In this document: in pieces, positions 21,289 through 61,240 of the stretch
Layout: each line of letters starts with the position of its first letter
Position numbering within the stretch: the first letter of the stretch is position 1
Assembly (NCBI GenBank): GCA_024734495.1
Contig: JALMQS010000903.1
Span: 62,001 to 126,000 of the forward strand
Length of the DNA stretch: 64,000 nucleotides
Origin: Forficula auricularia
Lineage: Eukaryota; Arthropoda; Insecta; Dermaptera; Forficulidae
Direction of reading: 5' to 3'
Notes under the pieces: model-generated
The model's database searches: none
What the model was told of the DNA's origin: nothing
Seen by the model: the letters and a program-made list of their open reading frames with translations, nothing else
Made by a program: the position numbers and the translations under genes

Positions 21289-21622
21289 GGAGAGAGACGG
21301 ACTGGTAGAAATTTTAATTGAATGTATGGAAGTAGCCCAGGGGTAGTGAGGAAAGAAAAATTACACACATATCATCGGGTGTAATTTATTGGAATCGCTC
21401 TCTCCTTTCAAACCGACGTTTTGAGGATTTTCCCTCCTTCTCAGGGCTTCAAAGGGTCAATGAATGAAACAATTTTTGACCCTTTGAAACCCTGAAGAGG
21501 AGAAAATCCTCAAGCTGATCGGTTTGAAAGGAAAGGAGAGGATTCCTTGCCTATATTATTTGTGTTAATTTTTTCTTTCCTCCTACCCCTGGGCTGCCTT
21601 TCCATTACATTCAATTAAAAAA
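21289..21622. mobile_element. Hammerhead family B foldback, copy 1
   Basis: Left arm: ggagagagacggactggtag, tggaagtagcccaggggtag, gtaatttattggaatc. The right arm is its reverse complement up to 21622. Each arm carries a damaged hammerhead-like core: minus at 21413-21454 (one T lost in CTGA-GA), plus at 21492-21532 (GAAAC changed to aagct). No coding frame. Confidence 0.8.
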
Positions 21623-21624
21623 AA

Positions 21625-22500
21625 TTTACAAATATGTTTCCGCCGTTTTTAATCAAAAATTGGGCATTTATTGTGAAAGAACTCAACCTTAAGTTTTATC
21701 GAAGTATTGTCCATCGCTTTCCCATCTTTCTGGCAGCATACGAATTCCGCTTCTGAAGAATGCTTCATCTTTTGAGGATATCCACGAATCGACCCAATTT
21801 TTGATATCTTCATATGATGTGAAGTGCTGCTCAGTCAGGCCATGATCCATCGATCGAAACAAGTGGTCATCGGAAAGAGTAATGTCTGGTGAATATAGCG
21901 GGTGGGGTAAAACTTCCCAATTGAGTGTTTCCAAATAGGTAGGTTTTGACCGGTTTTGTGGAAAATCGGCGTTCAATGTTTCTCGGCGTCAGTTTACATG
22001 GAATCCAATTTCCTTGTTTTTGAATCATTCCCAATGATTTCAACCGATGTGAAATTGTTTGTTGAGTCACTCCTAATGTATGTGCAAGTTCTACTAGCGT
22101 TTGTCACGAATCTTAGTCTGATAATAGTTTCAATTCCGCGCCTTCGTACACTTTCGGACTTCCGCTACGTTCTTTTTCTTCGATTTCAAATTCACCCTTC
22201 TTAAATTTTTGAAACCACTCACGGCAACTTCTCTCACTTAAAACAGCCTCACCATATAGCAATCGATGCGCCTCGGCTGCTGCTAAATCAAGTTCCCGCA
22301 ATGACGCTTATCCGGCTCAAAACTCGACATATTCGCACACAAAAAATATAATATACTGATGAAAATTCACTAAGATTTCAAGGTTACGTTGTTGACAAAT
22401 ATACAACCTTACGATATTCAAGTTTTACTTCTGACAATTTTAATAATAATTTACTGGTGGGACTAACTTTATCAAACGGAGGAAACTTATGTGTACACCT
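21625..22500 (-). mobile_element. mariner element 2, internally deleted
   Basis: The ends acataagtttcctccgttt (minus-strand start, near 22490) and aatatgtttccgccgttttt (21631-21650, + strand) are imperfect inverted repeats. The element is about 870 bp instead of ~1.28 kb because the transposase centre is gone. It lies directly beside the family B foldback. Confidence 0.85.
21689..22330 (-). pseudogene. mariner 2 transposase, irritans type, centre deleted
   Basis: From ATG at 22330 (MSSFEPDKRH), frames give AAAEAHRLLYGEAVLSERS, CREWFQKFKKGEFEIEEKE, VTQQTISHRLKSLGM and NWIPCKLTPRNIERRF. The frame then jumps to VKTYL. and LNWEVLPHPLYSPDITLSDD, HLFRSM, KNWVDSWISSKDEAFF, GIRMLPERW, GQYF. The segment that should carry the first two catalytic aspartates is missing. 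The third (SDDHLF) remains. Frameshifts are present. The blocks match the irritans subfamily. Non-functional. Confidence 0.92.
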
Positions 22501-22504
22501 ATTA

Positions 22505-22935
22505 ATAATTTAAAATTATTCTTACATTTTTTGGAGAATGATTTTAAGATCTAAATCTATTTTAGGAAATTAGATATATAAATTAAAACCACCGCTTAAA
22601 AGAGTTTTTATTTTTTGCTGCAGAGTAGCAGGCGGAGTTGTTAATTCATGGGGAGAAGCAACAGAGACAGTCCAACCAAACAATCAACATATATATACAC
22701 AAATAGATATTTTATTTATGTGTGTATGTCTATTTACATCGAAGCAGAGGACAACCTTTTTGTTTCTCTCTATAAAACCCACCCTCTTCGAAAAACTAAT
22801 TAACTAAGTGATTTCAATCCGAAATTTTTCGTTCTATAAACAACTTTTAATGTATACTAATATATGTATAAATATATTATTTTTCCTAGCCTTGATTGGA
22901 TCTCGATAAAAAAGCGAAAATTAAGAATGCAAGTT
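22505..22935. other. AT-rich with GCAGAGTAGCAG motif
   Basis: Near 22618-22650 is gcagagtagcaggcggagttgttaattcatg in two blocks, a variant of the recurrent GCCGAGAGTAGCAGAGTTGTT motif. Otherwise unassigned. Confidence 0.4.
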
Positions 22936-22938
22936 TAT

Positions 22939-23946
22939 TCATCTAAATCTATATTCGCTCCCCTTCAGTGCTTCCTGCGATTTTTCCATTACTTCCTCTC
23001 GACTTTTGCTGAAACGCGTTCCACAGCGCAGTGGTTTTTTAACTCGATTGAACAGAAAGAAAGTGAGAGGGAGCCAAATCAGGTGAGATTTGGTGGCTTG
23101 TTGGATGGTATTTGTTGCATTTTTCGTCAAAAACATTTCGAATAATGATGGCACTGTCACCGTCACGGTGCGTTGCTCGTGGTGCAAAATCCACGAGTTT
23201 TCTGCCCGGGTATTCATGGCGGTCTCTTTCGGCGGGTTGCTTCACGCAAACGTCTCATAACGCCCAAATAGTACTTCTTTGTGTTTACTGTCTGGCTTAC
23301 TGGCAAAAATTCATGATGCACTACACCGTTGTTGCAGCAATCGCTTGAAAACCGCGAAAGCATTGCCGCCTACGCACGACTGAAAACGGCGTGTTTTTTT
23401 TGGTCTCTCGGCTTTCATTTGGTGAACGCCATTCTGCTTGCCCTGCAATGTCTGGATTGCGATGTCTGTCCTCCTGTAAACCCACGTCTCGTCTCCGGCA
23501 TCGTGATCCTTTTGATGAATGTAGGATCGGATTGCAGCCTCCGCAAATCTTGTCTTTTCTGTTCACACGGTCTCTTTTTGCGCATGAAATTGAGGTCTTT
23601 GGCTGGCTTTGCCTTGCTACGGCAAAACCGTCAAGCAAAATATCTTGGACGGATCCATAGGCAATGTTCAACCTCTTATCTGGTTGTTGTTGCGGTTATT
23701 ATTAACATTTCTTTTGCTACATCAATGTTTAAAATCGGTTTTCGGTAATAATTTGTGTCTGCCACTGCGTTCATCATCTTCGGTTGACTCACAGCCGCGC
23801 GCGATTACCGCTCGTGCCACTGGTAATGACCGTTTTCTTTAGAGAATCGTTGCCGAAACACTTTTCAACATTTCCAACATTCGCGCACCATTAAATCCGT
23901 TTTTACGCAACTTAATACAAGTTCGTTGTTGCAAATTCAAATCCAT
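22939..23946 (-). pseudogene. mariner 3 transposase, decayed
   Basis: Minus strand from ATG 23946: MDLNLQQRTCIKLRKNGFNG, then ESTEDDERSG, AKPAKDLNFM, a block near VVHHEFLPVSQTVN, YYLGVMRRLREATRRK, a NSWILHHE block, FFLFNRVKKPLR and SREEVMEKSQEALK. These are in order for a mariner whose central block is GVVHHEFLP-type. Many frameshifts and stops are present. HHDNAPxH has become HHEQRT, so the second catalytic Asp is lost. GC content is visibly higher than in the surroundings. Element ends were not identified. Confidence 0.85.
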
Positions 23947-24109
23947 TTCTAGTGTAAAAATCGCCAACACTACGAAATGAATCATATGTAACACGCGCTT
24001 TTTGCAAATATCAAGCTATGACGCTAAGATTTAGAGAATACCAACAACAACAGATGTACCAACTTAACAACAAAAAAACAGAACTCAATCATATGAAACG
24101 ATGGTAGCG

Positions 24110-24490
24110 CCACACACACGGCACCTTTTGGGGGGGGGGGGTGTCAAGAACGATCTAGAGTAGTAGATAGATGGATTTATTCATTGAATGCTCTGGACCA
24201 AAAAAGATAATACAAAAATTGAATATATGGCTTTGTTGCAAGAGGGATACCAGTTAACTATTAAATCTATTTAGATAAATATATATGTGTACTAGGTGGG
24301 ACAGCTAAGGTCCTATGTGCGTATGCATTGTAAATAAATAAAATAAATAAATATGTACTAAAATTGATTTCAATGTCATATCTGCAAGCTGAGATTAAAT
24401 TGAAAGAAAAAACTGAAAACTTTATTGCATGCATGAATCTCTTAAAAAGAGAAGAATAAGATATATTGTCGGTATATGTTTTGGTTATTC
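24110..24490. other. AT-rich, C/G run, nothing recognised
   Basis: Contains a G-run near 24130. No gene supported. Confidence 0.35.
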
Positions 24491-24491
24491 T

Positions 24492-24698
24492 GAATGAACG
24501 AAAATGCAACAGAAGCTAAATATAAAATATGTAGAGATTAGGGGAAAATTCAGTAAACTTAGTAAGAAGTGCTAGAAGCAGTTACGAGATGGAAATTTTG
24601 ACCTTAATAATGCATTCGAATCTGAACGACCATTGAATGTTGACGATGATCACATCATATGCTTATATCCCGAATACGAAATCAACCCATATAAATAA
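24492..24698 (+). pseudogene. mariner 4 transposase fragment
   Basis: One frame from 24495 gives NENATEAKYKICRD. The next, from 24585, gives RDGNFDLNNAFESERPLNVD, DDHIICLYPEY. Together these match the N-terminal domain and linker of a mariner transposase (FRxGNFDL, PRSGRPxxVDDDxI). Stops and a frameshift lie between, and nothing of the catalytic core follows. Its sequence differs from mariner 1, so it is a fourth lineage. Confidence 0.7.
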
Positions 24699-24974
24699 AT
24701 ATCTTGATGTAGTGATTTTCCACGCTGTTTTCTTGCCGTTTCGAAATTTACATATATACTCCATTTGATACCAGTACGCGTATATTTTGATGTGAAAATG
24801 ATCGTAGAAAACATGATGTATCGGATATGTATATAAAATCAATTTATTCTTTTTCAAATTGAGAGATTTATTTTCACATATTTTAAATTTAAACTTCTCT
24901 CTTATTATGTAGAGGGGTTGAAGGAGTTATTCAACCAAAGCAAGAGATACACCGGATCCAATAAAATTCCTTGA

Positions 24975-25025
24975 ATAAAGAGGTTTCGCCCTGAATTTAT
25001 TGGGCTATCTTCAGTTTATTGGGCT
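24975..25025 (-). ncRNA. Hammerhead-like motif, family E
   Basis: Minus strand: AATAAA, CTGAAGA, TA, stem II GCCC...GGGC, GAAAC, CTC, TTTATT. The flanking AATAAA and TTTATT are fully complementary (stem I). The core obeys CUGANGA...GAAA. Stem III is absent. The two extra bases before stem II are atypical. Activity is not shown. Confidence 0.6.
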
Positions 25026-25251
25026 ACAGAAATATATAAAGCGGTGTTTACATTAGTAGTCATAGTTACCATTATATAAATTTGAATTGTTAATGTTGGT
25101 TTATTGACTTTCAATTATACACATATTACCATAAGTACATGTGATTGTTCCTGGTTTTGTCAACAATAAGAAATTTAACTTCATATATTTAGTGTTGTCC
25201 TGGAGTCCAAGATTCAGAGATTAGTGATCTTATACAAATTCTTTTATTATA

Positions 25252-25684
25252 CAGTGAAACCCCTCAAATCCGAACCCCGGAAATTTGAAATCCCGGAAAA
25301 TCCGTACGCAAAAAAGAGAAACTTATTTAATTAGTCATAAAACAATTATGTATATATTCTACATTATAGTATAGCCTTATTTTACATAATTAGTTGGAAA
25401 ATTTAACAAAGAAGTACAGTTAGCATACCTAACAAAGTGTAAATGTGTCTATATATTTATGTCATCCAGGATTGAAAAACGGTAAAAGTTGGTTATTGAA
25501 ATTCTTTAGGTTAATCTAGTTTCCAAAAACAATTAAATAATAATAGAAACACACAAAATATCACTTAATCTTTCACTTGATATCAGTTATCTTCAATTGT
25601 CGAGTATATTTTTGGCTAATCCGAACAAATTGAAATCCGAACAGGCTACAGCCCCAATTAGTTCGGATTTGAGGGGTTTCACTG
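25252..25684. mobile_element. pogo/Tigger-like MITE 1
   Basis: The TIR CAGTGAAACCCCTCAAATCC is inverted at the right end (ggatttgaggggtttcactg). TA flanks both sides (25250-25251, 25685-25686). CAGTGAAACC ends with TA target are typical of pogo-like elements. The 433-bp body has no ORF. Confidence 0.85.
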
Positions 25685-25968
25685 TATATATATAAAAATA
25701 AATGAATCTTATTAGAGGTAATTTATAATCTCATTATCATTTATTTATATTCAAATAGCCCAAATAAGGTTGAATTACTATACTATCATTATACATTTTC
25801 TTAAATTTTATTTTGCTTTCTGTTTTTACATTTTTAATTATTTACTTTATTTTGTATAGACATTTTTTGATTTTTATGTTTCACTCCCAGCAAAGCATAT
25901 GGTACTTCGATCCCAATCAAGAGAATAATTCACGGCTCAGATCACACAAGATAGATGTATAGATGTTG

Positions 25969-26381: not shown

Positions 26382-26389
26382 CAACATAA

Positions 26390-29947: not shown

Positions 29948-30784
29948 AGAGTGGCCTTATTTTGAGTATTTTCGAATTTTTATGCTCCCAGAGGCAGTTC
30001 CGTAACTAGGGCGGTGCCAGTGGTGCCCAGGCACAGGGCGCAGAAATGACCAGGCCAAGCTTGGTTTTGTATTTTGGCAAATATTTTCGAATAAACTTTT
30101 TTTTGTACCTAATTTATAAATACTTATTCAAAATTCTAGCAAGTACCTATACATTTTTTTCAAAGGCGCAGTTATATAAGCTCACACCGGGCCCATATAA
30201 GGCTAGTTACGGCTCTGCCCAGAGGCTCTTATTGTTTGAAATGAATAAAAAAATTATCCCCAATTTTCAAGTCTCTATCTCAATTTTAACCTTTGCCAAA
30301 CAGCGATTCAAGTTCCCCTTCTAAATAACATGGGGTTTTTGGCATTAAACGATCAATTTTTTATTTCGGCCAAAGTAATGGATCAACAAATTTGAAAATC
30401 TGTAAACTCTATTCTTTTAATAGTAGCTATCTTTCATAATTTTTACAGATTTTTAGCTATTATAATTTTGGAGTCTATAACTTACAAACGCTAAGATATA
30501 GCAGTATTTTATCTAGATGTATTCCATAATTATAATAGCTTAAAATCTGTAAAAATTCAGAAGGATAGTTAGTATTATGAGGATAATGTCTACAGAGTTT
30601 CATACTTTGGTCAGAATAAAAAATTAATCGTTCAATGCCAAAACCCCATGTTATTTAGATGGAAAACTTACATCGCTGTTCAGCAAAGGTTAAAATTGAG
30701 ATAGAGGAGATTTATTTATTTGAAACCAGATGAGTCTTGAGGAGCATAAAAATTAGAAAATACCCAAAATAAGAGCCACTCTTA
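29948..30784. mobile_element. Foldback MITE (GTGGCCTTATTTTG ends), copy 1
   Basis: Left arm agagtggccttattttgagt with attttcgaatttttatgctcc. The right arm at 30730-30784 is its reverse complement. The inner arms (ccccaatttt..., acatggggtttttggcatt, tgtaaaaat) are also inverted. Its left arm is split by a hAT element at 29995-30217. Sister copy at 54534-55168. Confidence 0.85.
29995..30217. mobile_element. Non-autonomous hAT, perfect 8-bp TSD, nested
   Basis: Ends CAGTTCCGTAACTAGGGCGG and ctagttacggctctg. The flanking 8-bp duplication CCCAGAGG is exact (29987-29994 and 30218-30225). 223 bp with no ORF. It interrupts the left arm of the foldback MITE, so it is the younger insertion. Confidence 0.95.
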
Positions 30785-30789
30785 TATAT

Positions 30790-31882: not shown

Positions 31883-32030
31883 GCCGAGAGTAGCAGAATT
31901 TTTATATATTGAAGGAGACAATAAAAGAGTGTGTCTTCTGCTGGAATTATAAATTTTATTTATTTATAACGAGATTATAGTTTCGAGGGCTTTGCCCTCT
32001 TCATCAGTCTATTACAATGTATTCACAGGA
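31883..32030 (-). mobile_element. Hammerhead family A terminal repeat, copy 2
   Basis: The + strand order is GCCGAGAGTAGCAGAATT, gaaggagacaataaaagagt, gtgtcttctgctgg, tttataacgaga, then the reverse complement of the ribozyme core. Only one arm is present; no facing partner is seen nearby. Confidence 0.75.
31955..32025 (-). ncRNA. Hammerhead-like ribozyme motif, family A
   Basis: Minus strand: TGTAATAGA, CTGATGA, A, stem II GAGGGC-aaa-GCCCTC, GAAAC, TATA, GTC, then TCGTTATA. C(TATA)G gives a one-pair stem III with GUC as cleavage triplet. Flanks TGTAATAGA and TCGTTATA pair as stem I with one bulged A. All core positions of CUGANGA...GAAA are intact. Only the extra A at the base of stem II is atypical. 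Confidence 0.75.
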
Positions 32031-32479: not shown

Positions 32480-32680
32480 TTCCGAAATGTAATTATTACT
32501 ACTGCTGAGAATGAAATACAATATATTATTGTTACTGCCACTGAAAGAGGAGACAGAGGGAATGCCGCATTGGATTTCCTTCACTGACTTTTCAAAACCC
32601 TGAAGAAGGAGGGAATAGCCTCCGAAACGTCGGTTTTATGAATAAAAAGATAGTGTAAATTATCTTCTTCTTTTTTGGAC
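32480..32680 (+). mobile_element. Hammerhead family B variant, partial copy
   Basis: Contains gctgagaatgaaatac, gttactgccactgaaagagg and a core at 32600-32633: CTGAAGA, A, GGAGG...CCTCC, GAAAC, GTC, with flanks AAACC and GGTTTT pairing as stem I. The same subfamily occurs at 46775-46930. Confidence 0.7.
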
Positions 32681-34131: not shown

Positions 34132-35237
34132 TCTTAATATATATAAAGAGAAGGTTATGTTTCATCTATCAAGGTACAGCCTAAACCGCTTGACCTAGAA
34201 AGATTAAATTTGGATTGTATATTCTTTCAACAATTTATGGGTGTGCTAAGGTATTTTTGAAATTCGAACCCTATAGGGGAAAAGGGTCCAAAATGTGTTT
34301 TCACAGTTTTTCAAGATCTCTTAAACCAGAAAAGATATGGGTTTAGTTTAGAAAGGTGACCCATTGAAATACAAAAAACATATTTGAGTATTTTACTCTA
34401 TTTGTCCCTGAAAGAGAGATATAGTCATTTTGGGGTAAATTTTTGAAATTTTTAAATTGGTCTATCTCCTCGAGTTTTTAAGTATTAGCATTCAAATTTG
34501 GTACATAGGTTTATTAATGCTAAATCTCGGAAAGTTTTTTTTTTTTGAAATTTGACCCCAGAACTGAAAAATGGGGGATTTTTGATTTTGTGGACTAAAA
34601 CACAAAAGGCTTTGTATCTTTCTTGCCCTTGGACCAAACTCAACCAAATTTTGTATACATAGCCACTACAAGGCTAGAAATGTATAAACTAACCACCCAA
34701 AATGGAGGGGGGGAGGTCAAAAATGAAAATTCTTGTCTTGGACCAAACTCAACCAAATTTTGTATACATAATCTGTGGGCCACTAGAAGGCTAGAAATGC
34801 AAAAACTAACCACCTAAAATGGGGGATCAGAAAATGAAAATTCTTGCCCTTGGAGCAAACTCAACCAAATTTTGTATACATAATCTGTGGGCAACTAGAA
34901 GGTTAGAAATGTAAAAACTACACATGCAAATGGGGACGGGGAGTCAAAAAATGAAAAATCTTTGCCTTTGCACCAAACTCAACCAAATTTTGTATTCATA
35001 ATCTGTGGGCCTCTAGGGAGCTAGAAATGCAAAAACTGGGTGCGGGGGTGGAATGCAGGGGTGGGGTGTAAGGGGCCCGGGCGGGGGTGGAATGTGTGGG
35101 AAGGGTGCGTATTGGGGTGCAGGGTGGTTGCGAAGGTGGAATGAGGTTGGGGTGTGGGGCTGGGGGTGGGTAATGGGGCGCAGGGTGGGTGCCCACTGGC
35201 TAGCAAGAGGGCCGCCGAAAGCGGGCGTGGCAGCTAG
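34132..35237 (+). mobile_element. Non-autonomous Helitron, copy 3
   Basis: Starts A|TCTTAATATATATAAAGAGA, a different 5' end from the TCTATATATATAAAATTAAGG type. It ends with gggccgcc-gaaa-gcgggc, gtggcagCTAG, T. It carries four tandem copies of the ~100-bp unit and a G-rich tail, but no helicase. Confidence 0.8.
34620..35035. repeat. Tandem ~100-bp minisatellite, four units
   Basis: Units start ttgccc(t)tggaccaaactc, continue aaccaaattttgtatacata, atctgtgggccactagaagg, ctagaaatgcaaaaacta, then accacc(c/t)aaaatgggg and ggtcaaaaatgaaaattc. The same unit occurs singly or in pairs in other elements. Confidence 0.85.
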
Positions 35238-37889: not shown

Positions 37890-38479
37890 AAATGAATATA
37901 TGAGACGTTAATTTTGAAAGTAATTCAACGATTCAAGTCTATTTTTTGTTATTTCAAGATATACAAATACATATAAATTTATATATATTCTTGTATATTT
38001 CTTTTGGCGAATTCATGAGGATTTTCTGACAATTTTGTTGACTGTGATATTATAAATATGAGAAGAAGATATTTGTGTCTAATTAAAACTGCCATTAACA
38101 AAATTTGACTTGCCTCACTTTCAAAATAAACAGCTCATATATATATAAAGTTTATTTAATTAAAAACCTGGCCGTCATCTTTAATATTTATATATAAAAT
38201 GTCTGACGTATTTATAAGTTTATATATGTGCCTATAATTATGAAAGTGGACTAAGTCAAAGAATTAAAAAATTATTATTTATTCATATTTTATGTTCCAT
38301 CAATTTAAAAAGTACAGTAATAAGATGTCGGTTTTGAAAAATCGCATAAAATTGAACTAAATTGAAAGTATTAGCCTAGGGTAGCAGAATTTTTATATAT
38401 TGAAGGAGACAATAAAAGAGTGTGTCTTCTGCTGGAATTATAAATTTTATTTATAACGAGACTATAGTTTCGAGGGCTT

Positions 38480-38535
38480 TGCCTTAGACTGATGAAAAGG
38501 GCAAAGCCCTCGAAACTATAGTCTCGTTATAAATC
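38480..38535 (+). ncRNA. Hammerhead-like motif, family A, intact core
   Basis: CTGATGA (38489-38495), AA, stem II GGGC-aaa-GCCC, TC, GAAAC, TATA, GTC (38521-38523), TCGTTATA. The core is intact. The upstream side is truncated by the junction at ccttaga, so stem I is short here. Confidence 0.7.
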
Positions 38536-38621
38536 ACATTTATAATTCCAGCAGAAGACACACTCTTTTATTGTCTCCTTCAATATGAATGGAAAGTTAA
38601 TAAAGTACATTAATTCCTGTG

Positions 38622-38685
38622 AATCAATTGTAATAGACTGATAAAGAGAGGAAAGCCCTCGAAACTATAGTCTCGTTATAAATCA
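38622..38685 (+). ncRNA. Hammerhead-like motif, family A, broken core
   Basis: Upstream TGTAATAGA is present, but the core reads CTGATAA: the invariant G of CUGANGA is A, which should abolish cleavage. Stem II is also changed (GAGAGG/GCCCTC). GAAAC-TATA-GTC is retained. Confidence 0.7.
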
Positions 38686-39930: not shown

Positions 39931-39987
39931 ATTAATAAAGTAAAGGGAGTGTAGTTTCACAGTGAATGAAATAAAACTCAGAGGTTT

Positions 39988-40037
39988 ATACAAACTCAAT
40001 ATATTTCGGATTATTAGTCCATCATCAGGAGTTTACA
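39988..40037 (-). ncRNA. Hammerhead-like ribozyme motif, family D
   Basis: Minus strand: TGTAAACTC, CTGATGA, T, stem II GGA-ctaataa-TCC, GAAA, TATATT, GAGTTTGTA. The flanks give a nine-pair stem I including two G.U pairs. The core is intact; stem III is minimal or absent. Confidence 0.75.
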
Positions 40038-42379: not shown

Positions 42380-42907
42380 TTAAAGTAGTTCTTTCGCAAC
42401 AATCCACACAAAAAGTTTTTGCCTCGTAACCACTCTACACATATGAACGGTGCTAAAATTTTAGGTTATGTTTTTTTAACGTGACTGTACTTTTCACACT
42501 ACTATATCTTCTTTATGAATGGATCTTTTCCAAGCGATTGATCTTATGTCCCCTCCACAAAAAATAATCGTCCAAATATGTTGTTTTTTATTTTTTATCA
42601 AAACTACGAGGTAAAAAAATTAAAATTTTTTTTTTAAGTTACTCCGAATATATTATTCTAACAAATATTAGTTTTTCATCAAGAAGGTGAAAGTCCTTCA
42701 ATGAAAAAAAATAAAATAATGATCATTTTCCCACCCTTTCCCAATCTACCATATGTAAAAAATGTCATTTTTAATTGCAATTATTTCATGTTTGGTGTCG
42801 TAAATCATCTTCAAATTTTAACAGTATGTGTATTATGATTTTAATGACTTATATTCCAAGTTTCAAAGACTTCTTGAATTTTTGCATTTGTGAAAGAACT
42901 ACCTTAA
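42380..42907 (-). mobile_element. TTAA-flanked MITE type I, copy 2 (inverted)
   Basis: TTAA borders, ends aagtagttctttcgc and gaaagaactacc. The interior is reverse-oriented relative to 10143-10678. Confidence 0.85.
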
Positions 42908-42939
42908 AATGTTTCACCAAGAACCCACACGATTTTCCC

Positions 42940-43355: not shown

Positions 43356-44277
43356 TCTATATATATAAAATTAAGGTTTTGTCTGTACATTGCTCCAAAT
43401 CACGCCAAATTTTGGTTGCACACGTTTCAAGCAAAGTTATGAACGAAAACATCCTCAACAAAATTCCTGTCTGTATGTCTGTATGTTTCCGTCGTTTCTG
43501 AAAAGTTGCTCACGATTCACGTCAAAACGGCTGAAGGGATTATTATGAAATTTCATATTTACATCAGATGTCTTCTAACTTACGTTTTTAGCTATATAAT
43601 GTTTTGATATTTTGACCCCAGAAGGGGGTTTGGGGGGGGGGCGCACGAATGAAAATTATCAAATAACTCCTAAACTATTAACTCTACGGCAAATTTTATA
43701 ATGAGCAAAGTTGTAGGGGATTTGATTTCTGACAACATTTGTTTAAAAAAATTCCCCCAAAAAATCACCTAAAAGGGGGGGGGGGGTCAAAATATGAAAA
43801 TTCTTGCTCTTTGACCAAACTTAACCAAATTTTGTATACATAATCTGTGGGTCACTAGAAGGCTAGAAATGAAAAAAAACTGGGTGCGGGGGGTTGGAGG
43901 GCGTGGGGTGGGGTCTGGGGGGTGCATGGTGGAGTGGATGGTTTAGGTAAGGTTCCAGAGGCGTGGTGGGGTGGTGCGGGGTGGGATCCAAGGTGGTGAT
44001 GTGGGGCGGGGTGGAGGGCACGGGGGTGTGGTGGTGCAGTGAGGGTTCAGGTGAGGATCCAGGAGCTTAGTAGGGGGGGAGGGTCCTGAGGATAGGGGGT
44101 GCAGGGTCGAGTGGGTTCAAGTGAAGGTCCAGAGGCGTAGTGGGGTGGTGCGGGGCGGTGGTTGGGAACGGGTGCATGGTGCGGAGGATGGGAGTTGCTG
44201 GGTGGTGTTCGGGGGGTGTGGTGGGTCGGAGTGGGGTATGAGGGTGTGGTTCGTGGGTTGGAGGTCCAGGGGGCTAG
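43356..44277 (+). mobile_element. Non-autonomous Helitron, copy 2
   Basis: A|TCTATATATATAAAATTAAGG start, body like 3459-4470 with G-runs at 43630 and 43777, G-rich tail, end gggggCTAG|T. The usual GC hairpin before CTAG is missing. The flanking duplicated sequence at 42166-42379 gives a proxy empty site. Confidence 0.8.
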
Positions 44278-44592: not shown

Positions 44593-44727
44593 GTAAGTGT
44601 CTTCATTCTACGAATACCACAACAGATTCGTTTCTTCTCGTAAGAAATTTGAATTTAACTAACATTGCACACAAAATATTTCTCTATCATTAGAAATTAT
44701 CTTAAGCTATAATATTATATTTTACTT

Positions 44728-45121
44728 GAATGTAATGGAAGGCAGCCCAGGGGAATTGAGGAAAGAAAAAATTAACACCTATCAAATAAGGTGTAATTTA
44801 TTGGAATCCTTCCTCCTTTCCTTATCTAATTAAGAAAAGAGGGGAAAAAATTGTTTTTCTATGCCCTTTTAAAAGAAGAAAAAAGTTTTGAACACTGCTG
44901 TGGAGAGAGGAAGGAAGCATTTTATTTGTTTCCTTCATTGACCCCTTGAAACCCTGAAGAAGGAGGGAAGAATCCTCCGAAACGTCGGTTTTGAAAGGAA
45001 AGGAGGAAGGATTCCAATTTGATATGTGTTAATTCTTTCTCTCCTCACTACCCCTGGGCTGCCTTCCATTACATTCAATTAAAAGTTCTACCAGTCCGAC
45101 TCTCTCCATAGAAAATTTCGT
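44728..45121. mobile_element. Hammerhead family B foldback, copy 2
   Basis: Arms tgtaatggaaggcagcccag / ctgggctgccttccattaca. The plus-strand ribozyme core is in the right half; the left half lost its core. Poly-A/T-rich centre. Confidence 0.85.
44940..45000 (+). ncRNA. Hammerhead-like motif, family B
   Basis: TTGAAACC, CTGAAGA (44954-44960), A, stem II GGAGG...CCTCC, GAAAC, GTC, GGTTTTGAA. Stem I is AAACC with GGTTT, and may extend. The core is intact; stem III is absent. Confidence 0.7.
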
Positions 45122-45591: not shown

Positions 45592-46101
45592 TCTTTTATA
45601 AATGCAAAAATTCAAGAAGTCTTCGAAACTTGGAATATAAGTCGTTAAAAGCATAATAAACACACTGTTTGAAGACGATTTACTACACCAAACATGAAAT
45701 AATTGCAATTAAAAATGAAATTTTTTGTATATGATAGAATGGGAAAGGGTGGGAAAATGATCATTATTTTATTTTTTTTTTCATTGAAGGACTTTCCCCA
45801 TCTTGATGAAAAACTAATATATGTTAGAATAATATATTCGGAGTAACTTAAAAAAAATTGAAATTATTTACCTTGTAGTTTTGATAAAAAATAAAAAAAA
45901 AAAACATATTTGGGCGATTAATTTTAGAGAAGGGGATATAAGATCAATGGCTTGGAAACGATCCATTCATAAAGAGGATATAGTAGTGTGAGAAGTACAG
46001 TCACGTTAAAAAACATAACCTAAAATTTTAGCACCGTTCATATGTATAGAGTAGTTTTGAGGCTAAAACTGTTTGTGTGGATTGCCTCTAAAGAACCTTA
46101 A
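45592..46101 (+). mobile_element. TTAA-flanked MITE type I, copy 3
   Basis: TTAA borders, ends ggtagttcttttataaatgc and ctctaaagaacc. Orientation as in the copy at 10143. Confidence 0.85.
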
Positions 46102-46774: not shown

Positions 46775-46930
46775 TACTAAATTCTGCTGAGAATGATATG
46801 CTGTATAATGTTACTGCCACTGAGCGAGGGGAATGTCACATTGTATTGCTTTCACTGACTTCTCAAAACCCTGAAGAAGGAGGGAATAAACCTCCTAAAC
46901 GTCGGCTTTGAATAAAAAAGATAGTTAGCT
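46775..46930 (+). mobile_element. Hammerhead family B variant, partial copy 2
   Basis: Parallels 32480-32680 (gctgagaatgatatg, gttactgccactgagcgag). Core at 46871-46905 is CTGAAGA...CCTCC-TAAAC-GTC; the G of GAAA is T, so it is inactive by rule. A G-run at 46711-46726 lies upstream. Confidence 0.7.
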
Positions 46931-50680: not shown

Positions 50681-50689
50681 TATGTATTA

Positions 50690-52039: not shown

Positions 52040-52044
52040 GTACT

Positions 52045-52465
52045 TAACACTAACAATCTGGACCACATCATCTACATAATATTTTGGCGATTTAAGCAAG
52101 GTATAAAATATACTGTTGCAGTTTTCATCTACATACTTCGTTTTATAAAATTTCGAACACTTTTTATTATAAATTTTAAGATGTTATAAATAATTAAATG
52201 TAACAATTTTATTTTACTTTTTTCATCTTTTTCTTTGATTTCACGTCTATCTATCTTTGATTTTATTTTAGTTTAATTTAACTTATTTTGAATCTATCTT
52301 GTACAGACTGAAGTTTCTATTTAATAGATTATTGATTATTTTAATTTCTATCTATTTTTTTTTCTGTTCCACTCTGTACAATATCCAAACTTTATGATTT
52401 TTGAACAATATAATTTGTCATATTATACGTGAACAAAAGAGTTTTTAAAGGGTTGTAGTAGTGTT
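52045..52465. other. Intron 3 start, nothing recognised
   Basis: AT-rich intronic sequence with no element assigned. Confidence 0.5.
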
Positions 52466-52469
52466 TCAC

Positions 52470-52600
52470 AAATAATAAAAAAATTAAATTTTTTAAGTTT
52501 ACAAATTTGTAAATACAACTCCTGATGATGGGCTAAAAACCCGAAATACATATATATAGATTATTCAATAAAACTCCATTAATTAAATTTTTTTTATTTT
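52470..52600 (+). ncRNA. Hammerhead-like motif, family D, copy 2
   Basis: CTGATGA (52522-52528), T, stem II GGG-ctaaaaa-CCC, GAAAT. Downstream ttattcaataaaactccatt resembles the family D arm. Stem I is decayed. Confidence 0.6.
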
Positions 52601-52604
52601 TATT

Positions 52605-53640
52605 TTATTTTTGAAACACCACTACAATTCTTTAAAAACTCCTTTGTTTAATTTGTTTCACTATAAACCAACACCGCTTTCCCTAAATGTTATACGTGAA
52701 CGTTTCCGTTTCTTCTTAGTAATCTATATCAGCATGTTTAATTTATTTTATCGATTAAATACTATCTTGAGGCTCATCACATTTTCAACATAAATACAAT
52801 AATGCAACTCGCTGAATAATGAAAGTTTCTATTTAACTAACCGAAATGTTCACAAAGTATGACACTACACGTACACTAACCAACAAGTTTTTGTATTAAC
52901 ACATTACACTAGTTACGGACATTTTGACTGTCGCATACATTTTATAAATGAAGCCACTAAACTTTCACCAAAAATAGTGTTTTATTGGTTGCATAAGAAT
53001 CGTCCGACCTGCATAATGGGTGAAACCAGGCACTTGAAAGGGGCGGTATATAGCAAAATTATTTGTTTGTTCGATTGATTTTTTTTCTTCTTTTAGATTA
53101 AAGTTTTTCTGTGTATTTTTCTTTTAATTTTAAAGTGTAAAATTTGTTCAAAAAATATTCATATATAATAAATTAACCATTACTTGTTTGTGATATCCCT
53201 CTTGAGGGGCGGCAAAAAATTTCTTGCTTCAGCAGCAAGTTATTCTTGACCCGGTCCTGTTGTCAAGAGACAATGAATGTAAATTACGTCTATGCAATAT
53301 ACCGCCTTTAATTTTTGAAAATCTAAATACTATATATCGTCGGCTTGGAACAAGACTATGACAACTCGAAAAATTACTAATATATTTTCCAGGGGAGTTA
53401 ATTCAAGTTTTGCAAATCTATCTAGTTTAAATATATTTACATTAAGCATAACCACAGGACCCTTCTAGTACATACACATTTCAGAGACATTCAATAAAAT
53501 GTTGTCAATAGCTTTTTTTCGTTTAAGTTGATTACCCCTCTCCACCATCAGATATCATGTCTTGTTTCAAACCGACGGTATTTATCAAAAAAAAGTTTAA
53601 TCTGAAACCAGATAGATTTCACAATTTTAATTAGAAAATC
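52605..53640. other. Intronic, nothing firm
   Basis: AT-rich. 53180-53300 (tcttgaggggcggcaaaaaa, cttgacccggtcctg) is less AT-biased but unrecognised. Confidence 0.4.
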
Positions 53641-53700: not shown

Positions 53701-53961
53701 TATCTCTACTGTTTGAGTGAATTTAGTTCAAACTTTTCTTTCGATAAACAATTCAACCACCAAAACACTAAATCTAATAATCAGTAACTAAAATTTCAAG
53801 GTAGGTTTCACAAAATAAAACAAATATATATTTTTAGTTTTATCTCGATATAATTATAAATTTTAATTAAGAGTAATGGAAGGCAGCCCAGAGGTAGTGA
53901 GGAAAGAAAAAATTAACACATATAAAATTAGGTGTAATTTATTGGAATCCTTCCTCCTTTC

Positions 53962-54015
53962 CTTTCAAACCGACGTTTCAGAGGATTTTTCCCTCCTTCT
54001 TCAGGGGTTTCAAAG
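53962..54015 (-). ncRNA. Hammerhead-like motif, family B, left arm
   Basis: Minus strand: GAAACCC, CTGAAGA, A, GGAGG...CCTCT, GAAAC, GTC, GGTTTGAAA. The closing base of stem II changed C to T. Stem I AAACC/GGTTT intact apart from one inserted C. Confidence 0.65.
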
Positions 54016-54194
54016 GGTCAATGAATGAAACAAATAAAATGTTTCCTTCTTCTCTCCACAGTAGTGTTCAAAAACTTTCTTCATTTTTAACAAAGGCATA
54101 GAAAAATAAATTTTTTTCCCTTCTTTTCTTAATTAGATTAGATTAGTTTTTGAACACTACTGTGGAGAGAAGAAGAAACATTTTATTTGTTTCA

Positions 54195-54250
54195 TTCGTT
54201 GACCCTGAAGAAGGAGGGAAAAATCCTCCGAAACGTCGGTTTGAAAGGAA
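54195..54250 (+). ncRNA. Hammerhead-like motif, family B, right arm
   Basis: GACC, CTGAAGA (54205-54211), A, GGAGG...CCTCC, GAAAC, GTC, GGTTTGAAAG. Core and stem II intact; upstream stem I side shortened to ACC. Confidence 0.7.
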
Positions 54251-54533
54251 AGGAGGAAGGATTCAATAAATTACACCTAATTTTATTTGTGTTAATTTTT
54301 TCTTCCTCACTACCTCGGGCTGCTTCCATACTTTCAATTAAAATTTCTACCAGTCCGTCTCTCTCCCAAAGAAAATTTCGTTGCAAAAAAATTATAAATT
54401 TGTTTTATTTTGTGAAACCTACCTTGAAATTTTACTTACTGATTATTTAAAAATGTTTCACCTTGAACCGACACCTAACTCTTTAAAATTACTAAATTTA
54501 ATATATATTCATATTCATATTCATTATGTATAT

Positions 54534-55168
54534 AAGGGTGGTCCTTATTTCGAGTATTTTCGATTTTTTACGCTGGCAGAGGCTCATATGGTTCTAAATA
54601 AATAAAAAAAATATCCCTCAAGTTTCAAGACCCTATCTCATTTTTAACCTGTTCCTCAGAGCGATGTAAGTTTCCCAACTAAATAACTTGGTGTTTTTGG
54701 CATTGAACGATCAATTTTTTATTCCGGCCAAAGCAATGGTTTAAAAATTTGAAACTCTGTAGATTTTATCCTTATAATAGTAGCTACCCTTCAGAATTCT
54801 TACAGATTTGTAGCTATTATCATTTTGGAGTCTATAACTTACTAACACTAAGTTTATGGCAGTATTTTATCTAGCTGTAACTCCAAAATTATAACAACTA
54901 ATAATCTGAAAAAACTGAAGGATAGCTACTATTATAAAGGTAAAGTTTACAGAGATTCTAATTTTTTGAAATATTTCTTTGGCCGGAATAAAAAATTGAT
55001 CGTTCAATGCCAAAACCCCATGTTATTTAGATGGGCAACTTGCATCGCTCTGAGGCACAGGTTAAAATTGAGATTGGGACTTGAAATTTGGAAGATATTT
55101 TTTTTATTTATTTTGAACCATATGAGCCTCTGCCAAAATTCAAAAATACCCAAAATAAGGACCACCCT
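54534..55168. mobile_element. Foldback MITE (GTGGTCCTTATTT ends), copy 2
   Basis: agggtggtccttatttcgag left, reverse complement right; arms extend through ggcagaggctcatatggttc. Interior parallels 29948-30784 without the hAT insertion. TA-like flanks. Confidence 0.88.
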
Positions 55169-55260
55169 AATATATACGGTATATATTTAGTCAATTTTAA
55201 AAATTTATTTCCCCATAAATTGTAATATTTTATAATAATTGAATTCTGAACTGTTTTCAG

Positions 55261-56090: not shown

Positions 56091-56259
56091 TTAAGTAAAT
56101 TTATAATTTTCTCATTAATATATTTAAAGAATAATTAACATATTAACGATAATTATTTTGATCGCGCTATTTAAACAACATATATATCGCGAGACTGCTG
56201 CTGGTTGATGAATTGGAGTGTGCTGAGTCTTAAATCTGGACCAAGAGAGAATGAAAAAG

Positions 56260-56457: not shown

Positions 56458-57158
56458 TTTTACTTTACCATACAGGGTATGGTCAAGTATTGTAATCGTG
56501 CATGAAAAAAGTGTTTTTTCCTTCTTTTTTTCGAAATATCTAAAAAACGGCTGAAACTATTTTGATTAAAAAAATTGAGCGAAACCATGGCATTTCGGTC
56601 TACAAAAAAGCCCTAATAAGTGAACATCGAAAAAATTATATTTTTCGAGATAATAATTGTTTTGTCAAAATGTCTTTTAGTTAGTCTGTCTGGTTGTCTG
56701 TCTGTTAGTCTGTGCGTTACCAAATTTTTGTGGACGAGCTAGCTCAAAAACTAGTGTGAGTATCGAAACCAAATTTCACACGTAGTTTTGGTCCATTGAG
56801 ATTAAGAGCTGATTAGATTTTGGTGCATATCGACCCAAAATTAAGGGGGTGGAGGGGGGTTAAAAATTAAAAATCTAGGCTCTTGTACCAAACTCAACCA
56901 AATTTTGTATACATAATCAGTGGACCCCAGAAGTCTAAAATGAAAAAACAAACAGCCCAAAATGGGGGAGGGGGTGTAGGGTCAAAAAATGAAAATCTTG
57001 GCCATTTACCAAACTCAACTAAATTTTGTATACATAATCAGTGGGACACCAGAAGTATAAAAATGCAAAAACTAACCCCCTCTACATGATTATAAATAAT
57101 TTTAGGGGCCAGGTTATATGGTAAAGTCAAGTGGATAGCCACATCAGAACACGTCAGC
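56456..57158 (+). mobile_element. MITE with TTTACCATAC ends, copy 2
   Basis: tactttaccatacagggtat left; right atggtaaagtcaagtggata then gccacatcagaacacgtcag. Contains two copies of the aactcaaccaaattttgtat unit. Opposite orientation to 59412-60112. Confidence 0.8.
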
Positions 57159-57644
57159 TTATTTTCATTCTCTCTTGGTCCAGACTTAAGACTCAGCAGA
57201 CTCCAATAGCTTCAACCAGCAGGAGTCTCGCGATATATTATTTCTTGTTTAAATAGCGCGATCAAAATAATTCTCGTTAATATGTTAATTATTCTTTAAT
57301 ATATTAATGAGAAAATCATAAATTTATCTCTTGCATAATCTAAGCCTCTACTGTATAAGTAAGTTAGTGGGGAGAATACTCTCCACAGAAATCGCCAACG
57401 CTCGGAAACGAGTATGGCACTTGAGAAGAACTGTATAAATCATCTATAAATATATTTTGAAGAAATATATAAATACTGTGTAACATTACTTGAAAATAGA
57501 AATTAATTTTGTAACATCAGTATTTTAAGCTTTATCAAGTTGAACTAATATATAATTATTTTGATTAGTTATGTCCATCGATTAAATGATTAAAGTTGGT
57601 ATCGGGAAATAAGGACTATATTTTTTATACAAAAAATTTATATT

Positions 57645-57695
57645 TTATTGCCAACGTTTCATCAACTTAGTTGACTTCTTCAGGGCTCAAATAGT
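57645..57695 (-). ncRNA. Hammerhead-like motif, family C, left arm
   Basis: Minus strand: TTTGAGCC, CTGAAGA, A, stem II GTCAAC-taa-GTTGAT, GAAAC, GTT, GGCAAT. GCC/GGC forms stem I. Core intact. Confidence 0.7.
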
Positions 57696-57735
57696 TATCT
57701 TCCTTGCATATTTGTCATTTTTATAATTCTTTCTT

Positions 57736-57837
57736 AGTAAACATAGCAAGGCAAGTCATTGACATCAATCAGATTGAAAAAGTTTTAAAACATTTTCAAT
57801 CTGATTGATGTCAATGACTTGCCTTGCTATGTTTACT
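57736..57837. repeat. Perfect 45-bp hairpin
   Basis: 57736-57780 and 57793-57837 are exact reverse complements with a 12-nt loop (agttttaaaaca). Arms include acatagcaaggcaagtcatt. Confidence 0.95.
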
Positions 57838-58557
57838 TTAGTTTTATTTATTTTTGTTTTAACATTCATGACTTTTCATTTTTGGGTGGGTTAATTTATT
57901 ATTTTATTCAGTTATTGATTCTAAATTTTTGACTATACTGATGTAATTTGGTTTTTTGAGTTTGTTTTGGTTTTTAATTTTTAATTATTTATGACTATTC
58001 AAATTTAAACTTAACTGACTTAATTTATTTAATTTATTTGGTTTTTAGCTTTTTGACTCATACGATTTAATTTATTTACTTTTTGATTTTAATTTTGGTG
58101 ACTATAGAATTGAACTTTGATTGATTTAACTTTTTGGCTGTTTGAGTCATTTTAGGTTGGGTGAGAGTGAGCCACTGGGGGGGGGTCGGGTGAGCCGGCG
58201 AGCCTTTTGGTTTGTTTGAGAGAGGCTCTGTTCTAAGTTATTATTTTGTTTTTTGTTAATATAAATGTAATTGTACAGTTCCATGCGATTCCTTCTATTG
58301 AGTTTGAAAATGGATAAGAATCATTCAACATGCTAAAATTTGTATTTCTGTCCCTAGATTCCAACTTTGTTTTATACTATATCTCTCAGTGAGAAAATGT
58401 GTAATAAGTCATAGTTTTTTATTTTTTCTGATCTATATTATGTTTGTTTTGTATTGTGTTTTTTTTGAACTATGACTGTTGTTTTCTCCAAAAAAATAAA
58501 TAAATAAATAAAAAAAATAAAGAATTATAAAAATTACAAATATGCTAGGAAGATAAC

Positions 58558-58612
58558 TCTTTGAGCTCCTGAAGAAGTCAACAAAGTTGATGAAACGTTG
58601 GCAATAAAATAT
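58558..58612 (+). ncRNA. Hammerhead-like motif, family C, right arm
   Basis: GAGCTC, CTGAAGA (58569-58575), A, GTCAAC-aaa-GTTGAT, GAAAC, GTT, GGCAAT. Core and stem II intact; one change weakens stem I. Confidence 0.7.
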
Positions 58613-58674
58613 AAATTATTTGGATAAAAAATATAGTCCTTATTTCCCGATACCAACTCTAATATATAATTACT

Positions 58675-59220
58675 TTCCAAATAAATCTGTCTGTTTTTTC
58701 AAGATTCGTGTTACGTTCATAAGGTGCTATGAATCAAACGAAGTGTTTAAGAACATTTAAGAAAATTTAAATATTTATCATCAGTATTATGAAATTCAAA
58801 ATTTATTAACATTATTATATCATAATCAAAAAACGCGTATACACTTTTAACTGGAATTCGAAGATTGGAAGTAAATTTGATAATAATGAAATTATAACAG
58901 CCCTGGTGTTTTTGTCATTAATTTATAAATTGATGACCAAACACCGCCAGGCAAATATACAATTAGAAGACTTCAAAAATCAATTTCCTGAGAGGCCATT
59001 CTACAACTTCACTTTCTTTTATCACAGTTGTTTCATCAACGTAGACAAAAATTCCTTTTATTTTTATTTTTTAAATTCTGATGAACCCAAGCGAAACCAG
59101 TAAACAAAATTGAAATAATTTTTACTTTATTTTATAAAAATTTCCGTGTGTTAGATTTTATAATTGCTTTCACTTAGACGTTTTACTTTATTAATATCAT
59201 TTCCGTCCATAATTGTATTA
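58675..59220. other. Intronic or flank with unrecognised 65-codon ORF
   Basis: 58906-59103 (+) reads KLMTKHRQANIQLEDFKNQF and onward. Not recognised, and not the expected TM4 exon. Confidence 0.3.
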
Positions 59221-59279
59221 ATTTGAAAGTTTATACTAGGAAAATAAGGACAAATTTTTATGTGTGACTTTTTTATTTA

Positions 59280-59325
59280 CTAGGTAACGTTTCGTCGACT
59301 TTGCCGACTTCTCAGGGCTTCAAAT
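59280..59325 (-). ncRNA. Hammerhead-like motif, family C, one base lost
   Basis: Minus strand: GAAGCC, CTGAGA, A, GTCGGC-aaa-GTCGAC, GAAAC, GTTACC. The N7 position of CUGANGA is deleted. Confidence 0.6.
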
Positions 59326-59354
59326 AGTCATGTCACACATTCGTCTAAATGACT

Positions 59355-59405
59355 ATTTGAAGCCCTGAAGAAGTCGGCAAAGTCGACGAAACGTTGGCTG
59401 ATAAA
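59355..59405 (+). ncRNA. Hammerhead-like motif, family C, intact
   Basis: GAAGCC, CTGAAGA (59365-59371), A, stem II GTCGGC-aaa-GTCGAC, GAAAC, GTT, GGCTGA. Stem I is AGCC/GGCT. Core intact; stem III absent. Confidence 0.75.
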
Positions 59406-59411
59406 TAAATA

Positions 59412-60112
59412 AGCTGACGTGTTCTGATGTGGCCGTCCACTTGACTTTACCATACAACCTGGCCCCTAAAATTATTTATAATCATGTAGGGGGTGGGGGG
59501 TTAGTTTTTACATTTTTATACTTCTGGCTTCCCATTGATTATGTATACAAAATTTGGTTGAGTTTGGTAAATGGCAAAGATTTTCATTTTTTGACACTAC
59601 CCCCCTCCCCCCATTTTGGGCGGTTAGTTTTTGCATTTTTAGACTTCTGGGAGTCCACTGATTATGTATACAAAATTTGGTTGAGTTTGCTCAAATGACC
59701 TAGATTTTTCATTTTTAACCCCTCCACCCCCTTAATTTTGGGTCGATATTCACCAAAATCTAATCAGCTCTTAATCTCAATGGACGAAATATACGTGTGA
59801 AATTTGGTTTTGATATTCACACTAGTTTTCGAGTTAGCTCGTCCACAAAAATTTGGTAACGCACAGACTAACAACCAGACAGCCAGACTAGCAGACATTT
59901 TGACAAAACTATTATTATCTCGAAAAATATAATTTTTTCTATGTTCACTTATTAGAGCTTTTTGTAGAGCGAAATGCGATGGTTTCGCTCAATTTTTTTA
60001 ATCAAAATAGTTTTAGCCGTTTTTTAGATATTTTGAAAAAAAGAAGGAAAAAAACCACTTTTTTCATGCACGATTACAATACTTGACCATACCCAGTATG
60101 GTAAAATAAAAA
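59412..60112 (-). mobile_element. MITE with TTTACCATAC ends, copy 3
   Basis: agctgacgtgttctgatgtg, acttgactttaccatacaac left; cagtatggtaaaataaaaag right. Reverse complement of the 56.5-kb copy, inserted in element C2. Confidence 0.8.
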
Positions 60113-60169
60113 GTCACACATAAATACTTGGCCTTATTTTCCTATTATAAACTTTCAAATCAAAAAAAC

Positions 60170-60870
60170 GTTTTAATTTATTTTACTTTTTTTGAGAGAA
60201 ATAATAACAAAAAAAAACATTAAATTAATTCAGTTTCCAAAGCTCAAATTATTATTTATTTACGCTTATTATGTTCAATTGAATGTAAAAAGAAAACTTC
60301 TGAAGATGCTCTCTCTTGAGGCCTTTTCTGAAACCGATTGTTTTAGATGAGTGTCACGACCACCTAAAGACCCATTTCGTATAGGGTATTACACCACTGG
60401 TAAAATGGATAGTGACTATTTTCTTCATTGTAAAAGCGTCACAGATGTTACAACCCGGGACAGTGATCACGTCTCTATTATTCCGCACGGCGCTAAATGG
60501 CTCAGTTGCAGAGCACGGTTGTTGGATAAAAAACAAAATATTATACACCATACACCTATAAAAGGAAATTATACCAAACTCGAATATTTATAAACTTGAT
60601 TCAACTATATAGTAAAACTTATTTTAAAGTCGAAAATTAAATTAAGAAATAAAATAGAGATTACTCACAACAAATGCATATTAAATAATCTCATTTCTGG
60701 TTTTACGAAGATGTTGATATTAAATTTAATAATAAATTTTCAATATTTTTTTATGTTTACTGTAATAGTTTAATATTAAGAAAGTTTCTACTCTCATAAC
60801 AAAGGACTCTCCTTTTATCTGTTTATATCTGCTTAAAAGTTCTTAAACAAGAAGAAAGCTAGTTTTTTGA
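60170..60870. other. Unassigned, with a GC-richer 80-codon ORF
   Basis: 60351-60593 (+) starts MSRPPKDPFRIGYYTTGKMD and contains HVSIIPHGAKWLSCRARLLD. Composition is less AT-biased than its surroundings. Not recognised; not a GPCR helix. Confidence 0.35.
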
Positions 60871-60874
60871 AGAA

Positions 60875-61050
60875 AAAATAAAATAAAATTCATCTCTATG
60901 CGTCTGTCCGTAAGCACGATGTAATCGAAAGCTTGGAGCTTGCTCGTTTTATTCTGGAAAAATTTCTAGTTCGTAAACATTTGGACGCAGTAGCTTCTAA
61001 ATCAGGAAAAATTGAATCCCTATTCCCAGAGCTCTTAAAAAGTGGGAACT
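60875..61050 (+). other. Unrecognised open frame without start codon
   Basis: Between stops, a frame reads IHLYASVRKHDVIESLELAR, FILEKFLVRKHLDAVASKSG, KIESLFPELLKSGNL, ending at TGA. It is mixed in composition and helix-like. It lies just upstream of a degenerate hammerhead-like end, so it could be the tail of a retroelement ORF. No match recalled. Confidence 0.35.
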
Positions 61051-61174
61051 TATGATTCGAAATTTAGATCTAAAGTTAGATATGTAGCTGTTAAATCTTG
61101 TATTTTTGTGATTAAATTTATTAAGAGCTAAATCACACAAAATTTAGTTAACTTTAGCTTGATTAACCTACAAT

Positions 61175-61240
61175 CGGACTGCTTGCTCATACTTAAGAAC
61201 GATCGCAGAATAAACTAATCGAAACGTCGTAGTTTCATTG
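61175..61240 (+). ncRNA. Degenerate hammerhead-like motif, family F
   Basis: CATAC, TTAAGAA, CGATC...AATC, GAAAC, GTC, GTAGTT. TAC/GTA could form stem I and GAT/ATC stem II, but CUGANGA is altered. Weak. Confidence 0.35.

Follow-up and report, generated by a model that had tools for sequence, protein, structure and literature searches.

Predicted minimal hammerhead ribozymes with an added base beside the core in Penelope-like elements of Forficula auricularia

A 64,000-nucleotide stretch of the Forficula auricularia genome (C820:62001-126000, hereafter the window) carries about fifteen copies of a compact motif that very probably represent predicted minimal type I hammerheads, derived from the pseudo-long terminal repeats (pLTRs) of several families of Penelope-like elements (PLEs) with a GIY-YIG endonuclease and found in short insertions without coding sequence. 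They belong to a kind that is already known, the small hammerheads of PLEs, for which action as dimers is reported, and the interpretation reached in an earlier sequence-only reading of the window, largely correct, is partly supported by our results. Noteworthy for specialists are the abundance of the motif, the near-fixed insertion of A or U beside its core, and evidence for uncut templates.

Motif architecture and the extra base

Well-kept sites present, in order, a CUGANGA core, stem II, GAAA, H17 and an open-ended stem I, which is the type I architecture, plus a nucleotide at position 9.1 after A9 (N9.1). The pattern CTGANGAN{4,30}GAAA matches the window 23 times against 4.09 matches expected from shuffles. 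Of the fifteen or so hammerhead-like sites first proposed, about that number exist; ten keep the core, the one-base offset, at least three stem II pairs and GAAA (32600+, 44954+, 52522+, 54205+, 58569+, 59365+, 57683-, 54004-, 40028- and 32007-), while five are decayed (21492+, 46871+, 38489+, 38638+ and 25014-), with stem II lost at 21492+. Stem I reaches at least three pairs in 7 of the 15, 25014- included.

The extra base at the foot of stem II, also part of the sequence-only reading, is confirmed both in an unenriched sample, the window with 20 evenly spaced 10-kb pieces of contig C3, and by genome-wide counts. The 60 repeat arms considered below are likewise unenriched. When at least three stem I and four stem II pairs are demanded, the window and C3 pieces give offset 1 in 22 of 23 sites, offset 2 in one and offset 0 in none. 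Selection by the two core anchors alone gives 103 sites; read at offset 1, their first, second and third stem II pairs are formed in 90, 93 and 89, and read at offset 0 the first pair is formed in 13. Among 73 distinct motifs, anchored on both sides so that core and GAA are required, N9.1 is A or T in 72 (39 with A, 33 with T), the remaining motif having C.

Across the whole genome (1.06 Gb, 845 contigs), CTGANGA-N-GG-N{4,14}-CC-GAAA has 28,135 and 27,711 matches, together 55,846, against 9 for a reversed control, and A is the extra base in 24,227 of them; a GT..AC stem II pattern with A or T as the extra base adds 16,968 against 17 in the control. The pattern without the extra base has 509 matches against 7. 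Of 100 listed places in this last class, many look like members of the same families altered by a point change or a deletion, and 12 share one motif that recurs with what seems to be canonical spacing, CTGAAGA-GGGTTGCCACGAACCC-GAAA (e.g. C25:490521 and C33:8831668). In viral contigs, the extra base together with ACGT occurs in 17 stretches and canonical spacing in 60, under patterns that differ in how many letters they allow.

The unqualified claim that such a base is unusual is not supported. In the plus-strand hammerhead of chrysanthemum chlorotic mottle viroid (CChMVd) an extra A between A9 and 10.1 is reported as tolerated, U as faster, and C or G as strongly harmful (PMC3705267); by analogy, the A/U pattern at N9.1 fits this biochemistry. 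According to a 2023 paper, insertions between CUGAnGA and the adjacent stems do not exceed one or two nucleotides in known hammerhead alignments (PMC10085705), a limit which implies that short insertions occur. The CChMVd case concerns a viroid ribozyme, whereas here the extra base is common to many retroelement families. We found no literature statement on an extra base in PLE hammerheads, in a comparison that excludes Cervera and de la Pena 2014 and Lunse et al. 2017.

Covariation of stems I and II

Since the anchors require the core and GAA, only changes in the stems count as free evidence in the 73 distinct motifs. The ACGU class (38 motifs) has stem II pairs in 38, 37, 36, 37 and 34 of 38 at successive positions, with several pair types, although at the first of these positions the pair is almost always G-C or G-U and so says little. 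Its first four stem I positions pair in 37, 36, 31 and 27 of 38 against shuffled means of 27.1, 24.9, 22.5 and 21.0; the fourth pair lies within the shuffled maximum of 28, and the fifth, at 25, is at chance. Covariation of the two predicted stems is thus supported in this class. The AU-n class (27 motifs) has three good stem II pairs. Stem II of family A shows GC to AU changes at two pairs, and a ten-row alignment of the family has a covariation score of 0.233 against 0.150 in shuffles, a value reached by 1 of 500 shuffles, while cells paired likewise exceed 499/500.

The stem I pairs first described for families B, C and D are found as described in the better copies. For family A, the proposed stem TGTAATAGA/TCGTTATA has to be given up in favor of 2 bp only, positions 1-4 pairing in 8, 8, 0 and 0 of 8 distinct motifs. 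The further claim that compensating differences between families argue for a selected fold is supported for the compensatory stems of the ACGU class. A fold kept in the genomic copies is not supported: stem II has a pairing probability of 0.0 in each of four folded palindromes (loci L029, L033 and L038, and one in the window). Taken as isolated motifs, the same four give 1.0, 0.06, 0.99 and 0.58, respectively, for the first stem II pair. Given this absence of stem II, palindromic copies are unlikely to be active in read-through RNA, insofar as equilibrium folding describes them.

Stem III and known small hammerheads

The stretch between GAA and H17 is palindromic, consisting of ACGU without a loop, of AU repeats, or of ACUAUAGU. 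As ACGU is unable to close a hairpin, stem III in that class should form only between two RNAs; AT-repeat and ACTATAGT stretches could close a hairpin of 1-2 bp. A stem III region that is palindromic and too short for a stable hairpin, as seen here, is expected of a minimal PLE hammerhead that acts as a dimer, and small PLE hammerheads are reported to cleave as dimers (PMC6466107, PMC7761336). The variants of Cervera and de la Pena 2014 and of Lunse, Weinberg and Breaker 2017, as summarized in PMC7761336, PMC6466107 and PMC6155905, resemble the present sites in being minimal type I hammerheads without helix III, in lying in PLE pLTRs and in being dispersed by the thousand; their reported dimer cleavage needs a palindromic stem III, also found here. 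The difference is that the extra base is the rule in this genome (55,846 against 509 matches).

Coding elements

The proposed connection to PLEs is supported by one coding element with an upstream motif together with the insertion structure described in the next section. Searching for GIY-YIG (PF01541) gave 150 scored genome matches out of 3,423 first-look candidates, several of them in open frames of 825-864 aa, and eight coding loci (L042-L049) were fetched. L042 is arranged in tandem with a period of 2909 bp and contains an open frame of 858 aa (827 aa when counted from its first Met), whose product combines a reverse transcriptase (RT) domain (RVT_1, 1.5e-16) with a C-terminal GIY-YIG domain (7.6e-6). 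A hammerhead motif of the ACUAUAGU class (CTGATGATGAAGACCAAGTCTTCGAAACTATAGTC) lies upstream of this intact open reading frame (ORF), with the first Met 231 nt downstream of the core start. The L044 protein likewise has RT followed by C-terminal GIY-YIG in one ORF, and L045 holds a head-to-head partial copy of a coding element. The PLE protein has at least 250 relatives at E up to 0.001 (7,992 candidates), and the named species among the 120 matches listed are insects and other invertebrates; Penelope RT and endonuclease protein patterns gave one weak match in 312 kb.

This organization recalls PAc, a Poseidon element of Anolis carolinensis, which is described as a PLE with RT and GIY-YIG and a hammerhead near the ORF start, as having a tail bounded by two RT starts, and as cutting and extending both target strands (PMC11167929). 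The PAc ORF starts at stem II, unlike that of L042, where the first Met lies farther downstream. None of the eight loci links a coding element to family B or family D, and we infer from their insertion structure that these families, too, derive from PLEs.

Palindromes and insertion structure

Many copies sit in head-to-head palindromes, a feature absent from the sequence-only reading. Neighbors within 500 bp among 100 listed matches of the genome-wide pattern with the extra base form 17 pairs, of which 15 are -/+, one is -/- and one +/-. All 13 of the -/+ pairs that were fetched (13 of 15) lie within palindromes, of 172 to 592 bp, in which the outer ends agree within a family and the center differs. 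Judged by eye, 13 of 14 palindromes (the 13 fetched and the window palindrome 53776-54447) have a tail on one side, L036 being unclear. The flanks share a word of at least 11 bp in 12 of the 14, as do 2 of 182 mismatched flank pairs, both with 11 bp; some shared words include a few bases of the element end or tail. The window palindrome gave just 7 bp because, as later inspection showed, it is nested, a family B insertion lying inside a D-type copy. This nested insertion (53852-54401) has its own 12-bp repeat, AATTATAAATTT, at 53852-53863 and 54390-54401, which we read as a target-site duplication (TSD), the 12-mer occurring 6 times in the window.

Tandem or inverted pLTRs, a one-sided tail and TSDs, the features by which PLE insertions are recognized, are all found here. 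Penelope elements are described with inverted pLTRs, a 31-bp tail and an 8-10-bp TSD, the head-to-head arrangement being the most frequent (PMC3846280), and by this comparison the head-to-head palindromes with TSDs match the published form of PLE insertion. With the Penelope of Adineta vaga in that paper the present copies share inverted pLTRs, a tail (31 bp there, and optional), TSDs, and inverted repeats that meet head to head with palindromes at the junction; the Adineta element has few copies, and the passages compared mention no hammerhead, whereas the present genome has many palindromes without coding sequence. The palindrome form is common, not general, and some window sites (e.g. 32600, 46871, 40028 and 32007) have no inverted partner.

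A different arrangement occurs at C4:1022593-1023094, where four family B motifs lie on one strand, head-to-tail and 111-245 bp apart, and could give dimers in cis.

Uncut templates and a proposed mechanism

A pile-up of 5' ends at the predicted cut was looked for and not seen in 60 unselected arms, drawn from families A, B, C and D. With 5' ends taken as BLAST ends, and hence approximate, 51/60 arms begin upstream of the predicted cut by more than 5 nt, 7/60 within 5 nt of it and 2/60 downstream, so most inserted templates were uncut at the ribozyme. Five of the seven arms near the cut are of family A, which contributes 19 arms, and by eye the start of one family A copy, L015 (9240-9410), coincides with the predicted cut. 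With 72,814 matches from two stem II patterns, this genome amounts to a very large natural sample with compensatory stems, an A/U insertion that is nearly fixed, and insertion junctions that can be read. It can serve to ask if insertion is preceded by cleavage, and the answer from the 60 arms is mostly negative.

The same insertion signature is reported in PMC3846280 and PMC11167929, with both target strands cut and extended and the tail lying between two RT start sites. The active RNA may form through pairing of two hammerheads at their palindromic stem III, in transcripts of tandem elements or with help from the PLE protein. This protein would cut both target strands and, beginning at two sites close together, copy RNA at both ends of the break; two 5'-truncated copies would then meet head to head, a step for which PMC3846280 proposes self-priming on an antisense template instead. 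The resulting palindromic copies would fold, as RNA, into long hairpins that exclude the ribozyme, and as dead ends of this sort they would leave selection on the ribozyme to act in the source elements. A bolder suggestion, which we think has little chance of being right, is that stem III serves mainly as an RNA dimer handle that joins two uncut PLE RNAs as paired templates for a dimeric protein, one per break end. If true, it would explain the palindromic stem III, the head-to-head insertions and the templates running past the cut together, and cleavage would then come later, or under regulation, with the extra A/U tuning it.

Points against the assignment and rival explanations

Several results weigh against reading the sites as PLE-derived hammerheads. 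Loci L001-L008 and L029-L041 were picked by the motif and therefore enrich the 103-site and 73-motif sets for it. The suggested check against the Rfam hammerhead models came out negative, with no match in the window at gathering thresholds or at E up to 10 and none in 18 loci at E up to 5; relaxed Rfam lists held mostly microRNA-type matches, below their cut-offs. The Rfam 15 models thus missed this motif class in the window and the 18 loci. Stem I of the AU-n class is within the shuffled range, and two of five measures in family A are not above shuffles (both-side-change pairs 215/500, further pair types 500/500). Isolated motifs fold with mixed z scores (-1.51, -0.17, -2.22, -2.50, 1.02 and -5.32 for six motifs), of which the lowest, from family A, reflects a competing pairing and not the hammerhead, and the stem II probability of isolated L033 is as low as 0.06. 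When neighbors up to 1000 bp are admitted, the 15 -/+ pairs are joined by four +/- and one -/-. L042 is alone among the eight coding loci in carrying its motif upstream of an intact ORF. In L043 a motif of that class lies downstream of the ORF, L044 has none and L045 no intact one in the fetched piece, and L046 has a C-like motif ~2 kb upstream of a 397-aa frame. L047 and L048 (98.8% alike, hence one lineage) hold ORF pieces of 143 and 194 aa, followed at 0.6-0.7 kb by a downstream ACGU motif, and L049 has a broken D-like motif only.

Some of these observations invite other explanations. The core might persist because the PLE uses it as an RNA signal that binds protein or forms dimers, its ribozyme function having been lost, which would suit the mostly uncut templates implied by the 51/60 arms whose starts lie over 5 nt upstream of the cut predicted for the ribozyme, as well as the report that the Anolis PLE hammerhead remains uncleaved without protein and that catalytic mutants left insertion in vitro unchanged (PMC11167929). 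We regard this as rather unlikely, since core and GAA are kept across changes of both stems (of which the stem changes alone are free evidence, the anchors requiring the core), N9.1 is A or U as hammerhead biochemistry predicts, and cleavage of the Anolis hammerhead is reported with protein present (PMC11167929). Very unlikely, in our estimate, is a spread as retrozyme-like tandem repeats (non-LTR retrozymes) through circular RNAs produced by ribozyme cleavage. In animal retrozymes, type I hammerheads do occur within repeats 150-450 bp long (PMC7229834), and the same-strand pair 149 bp apart in the window (38489/38638) and the four same-strand family B motifs within 0.5 kb on C4 have that look; however, the ACGU class has no stem III loop, and TSDs and scattered 5' ends fit PLE insertion. 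Nor do the sites have the form of metazoan non-LTR retrozymes, short head-to-tail repeats bounded by cut sites, as 15 of 17 close neighbor pairs are head to head and 7/60 arms begin within 5 nt of a cut. Long palindromes with TSDs could also come from foldback DNA transposons (resembling miniature inverted-repeat transposable elements) whose terminal repeats look like hammerheads by chance. This we find scarcely credible: the center varies between copies while the outer ends agree within families, the tail is on one side in 13/14 by eye, the coding PLE copy at L045 itself shows the head-to-head form, and motif counts and compensatory changes exclude chance.

Sites and other repeats in the window

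The predicted hammerheads of the window fall into families A-E. Family B (AAACC/CTGAAGA/A/GGAGG..CCTCC/GAA/ACGT/C/GGTTT) is intact at 32592-32644 (+) and at 44946-44998 (+), the latter between imperfect inverted arms (44720-44823 and 44995-45084) that it partly overlaps. Its head-to-head pair consists of 53960-54012 (-), the left half, with an extra C beside stem I, and 54197-54249 (+), the right half, with a stem I of 4 bp; nested insertion and outer D-type arms together form the inverted repeat 53776-54447 (81% self-complementary), followed by the AC-rich one-sided tail of the outer element (TGTTTCACCTTGAACCGACACC...) at 54448-54490 (+). Decayed family B copies lie at 46863-46915 (+), with TAAA in place of GAAA, and at 21484-21536 (+), a remnant with broken stem II inside the inverted repeat 21312-21620 (76%).

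Family C (GCC/CTGAAGA/A/GTCAAC..GTTGAT/GAA/ACGT/T/GGC) is present at 57639-57691 (-), head-to-head with a copy of decayed stem I at 58561-58613 (+); their inverted arms, 57589-57684 and 58568-58663, match at 96% and are separated by 883 bp. A further, intact copy at 59357-59409 (+) lies within the inverted repeat 59268-59413 (85%). Family D (AAACTC/CTGATGA/T/GGA..TCC/GAA/ATATAT/T/GAGTTT) is intact at 39984-40036 (-), and a D-type motif at 52514-52566 (+) is flanked by inverted arms at 52432-52488 and 52592-52648. Family A (CTGATGA/A/GAGGGC..GCCCTC/GAA/ACTATAAT/C) occurs at 31963-32015 (-) with a stem I of 2 bp; a 92% palindrome at 38397-38586 holds the motif 38489+, which has a mismatch at 10.1, and a second copy with core CTGATAA follows on the same strand 149 bp downstream (38630-38682, +). 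Another family A palindrome (664-763, 92%) is without a complete ribozyme core, and a diverged family E copy with a two-base offset lies at 24970-25022 (-).

Other repeats share the window. A second palindrome family of ~570-650 bp (54529-55174 and 30220-30789, and L019 2390-3024) shows no hammerhead core in its two window copies. The inverted repeat at 57736-57837 (102 bp, 98% self-complementary) matches Rfam microRNA families below their cut-offs and is most likely a foldback repeat. A dispersed repeat built of tandem units of ~112-121 bp (AACCACCCAAAA...GGGGGG...) has eight copies, at 34662-35037, 3877-4108, 43769-43897 and 56842-57091, and another, in both orientations at 10142-10423, 42627-42908, 61604-61806 and 45668-45779, is probably recent, as its copies are up to 97% alike.

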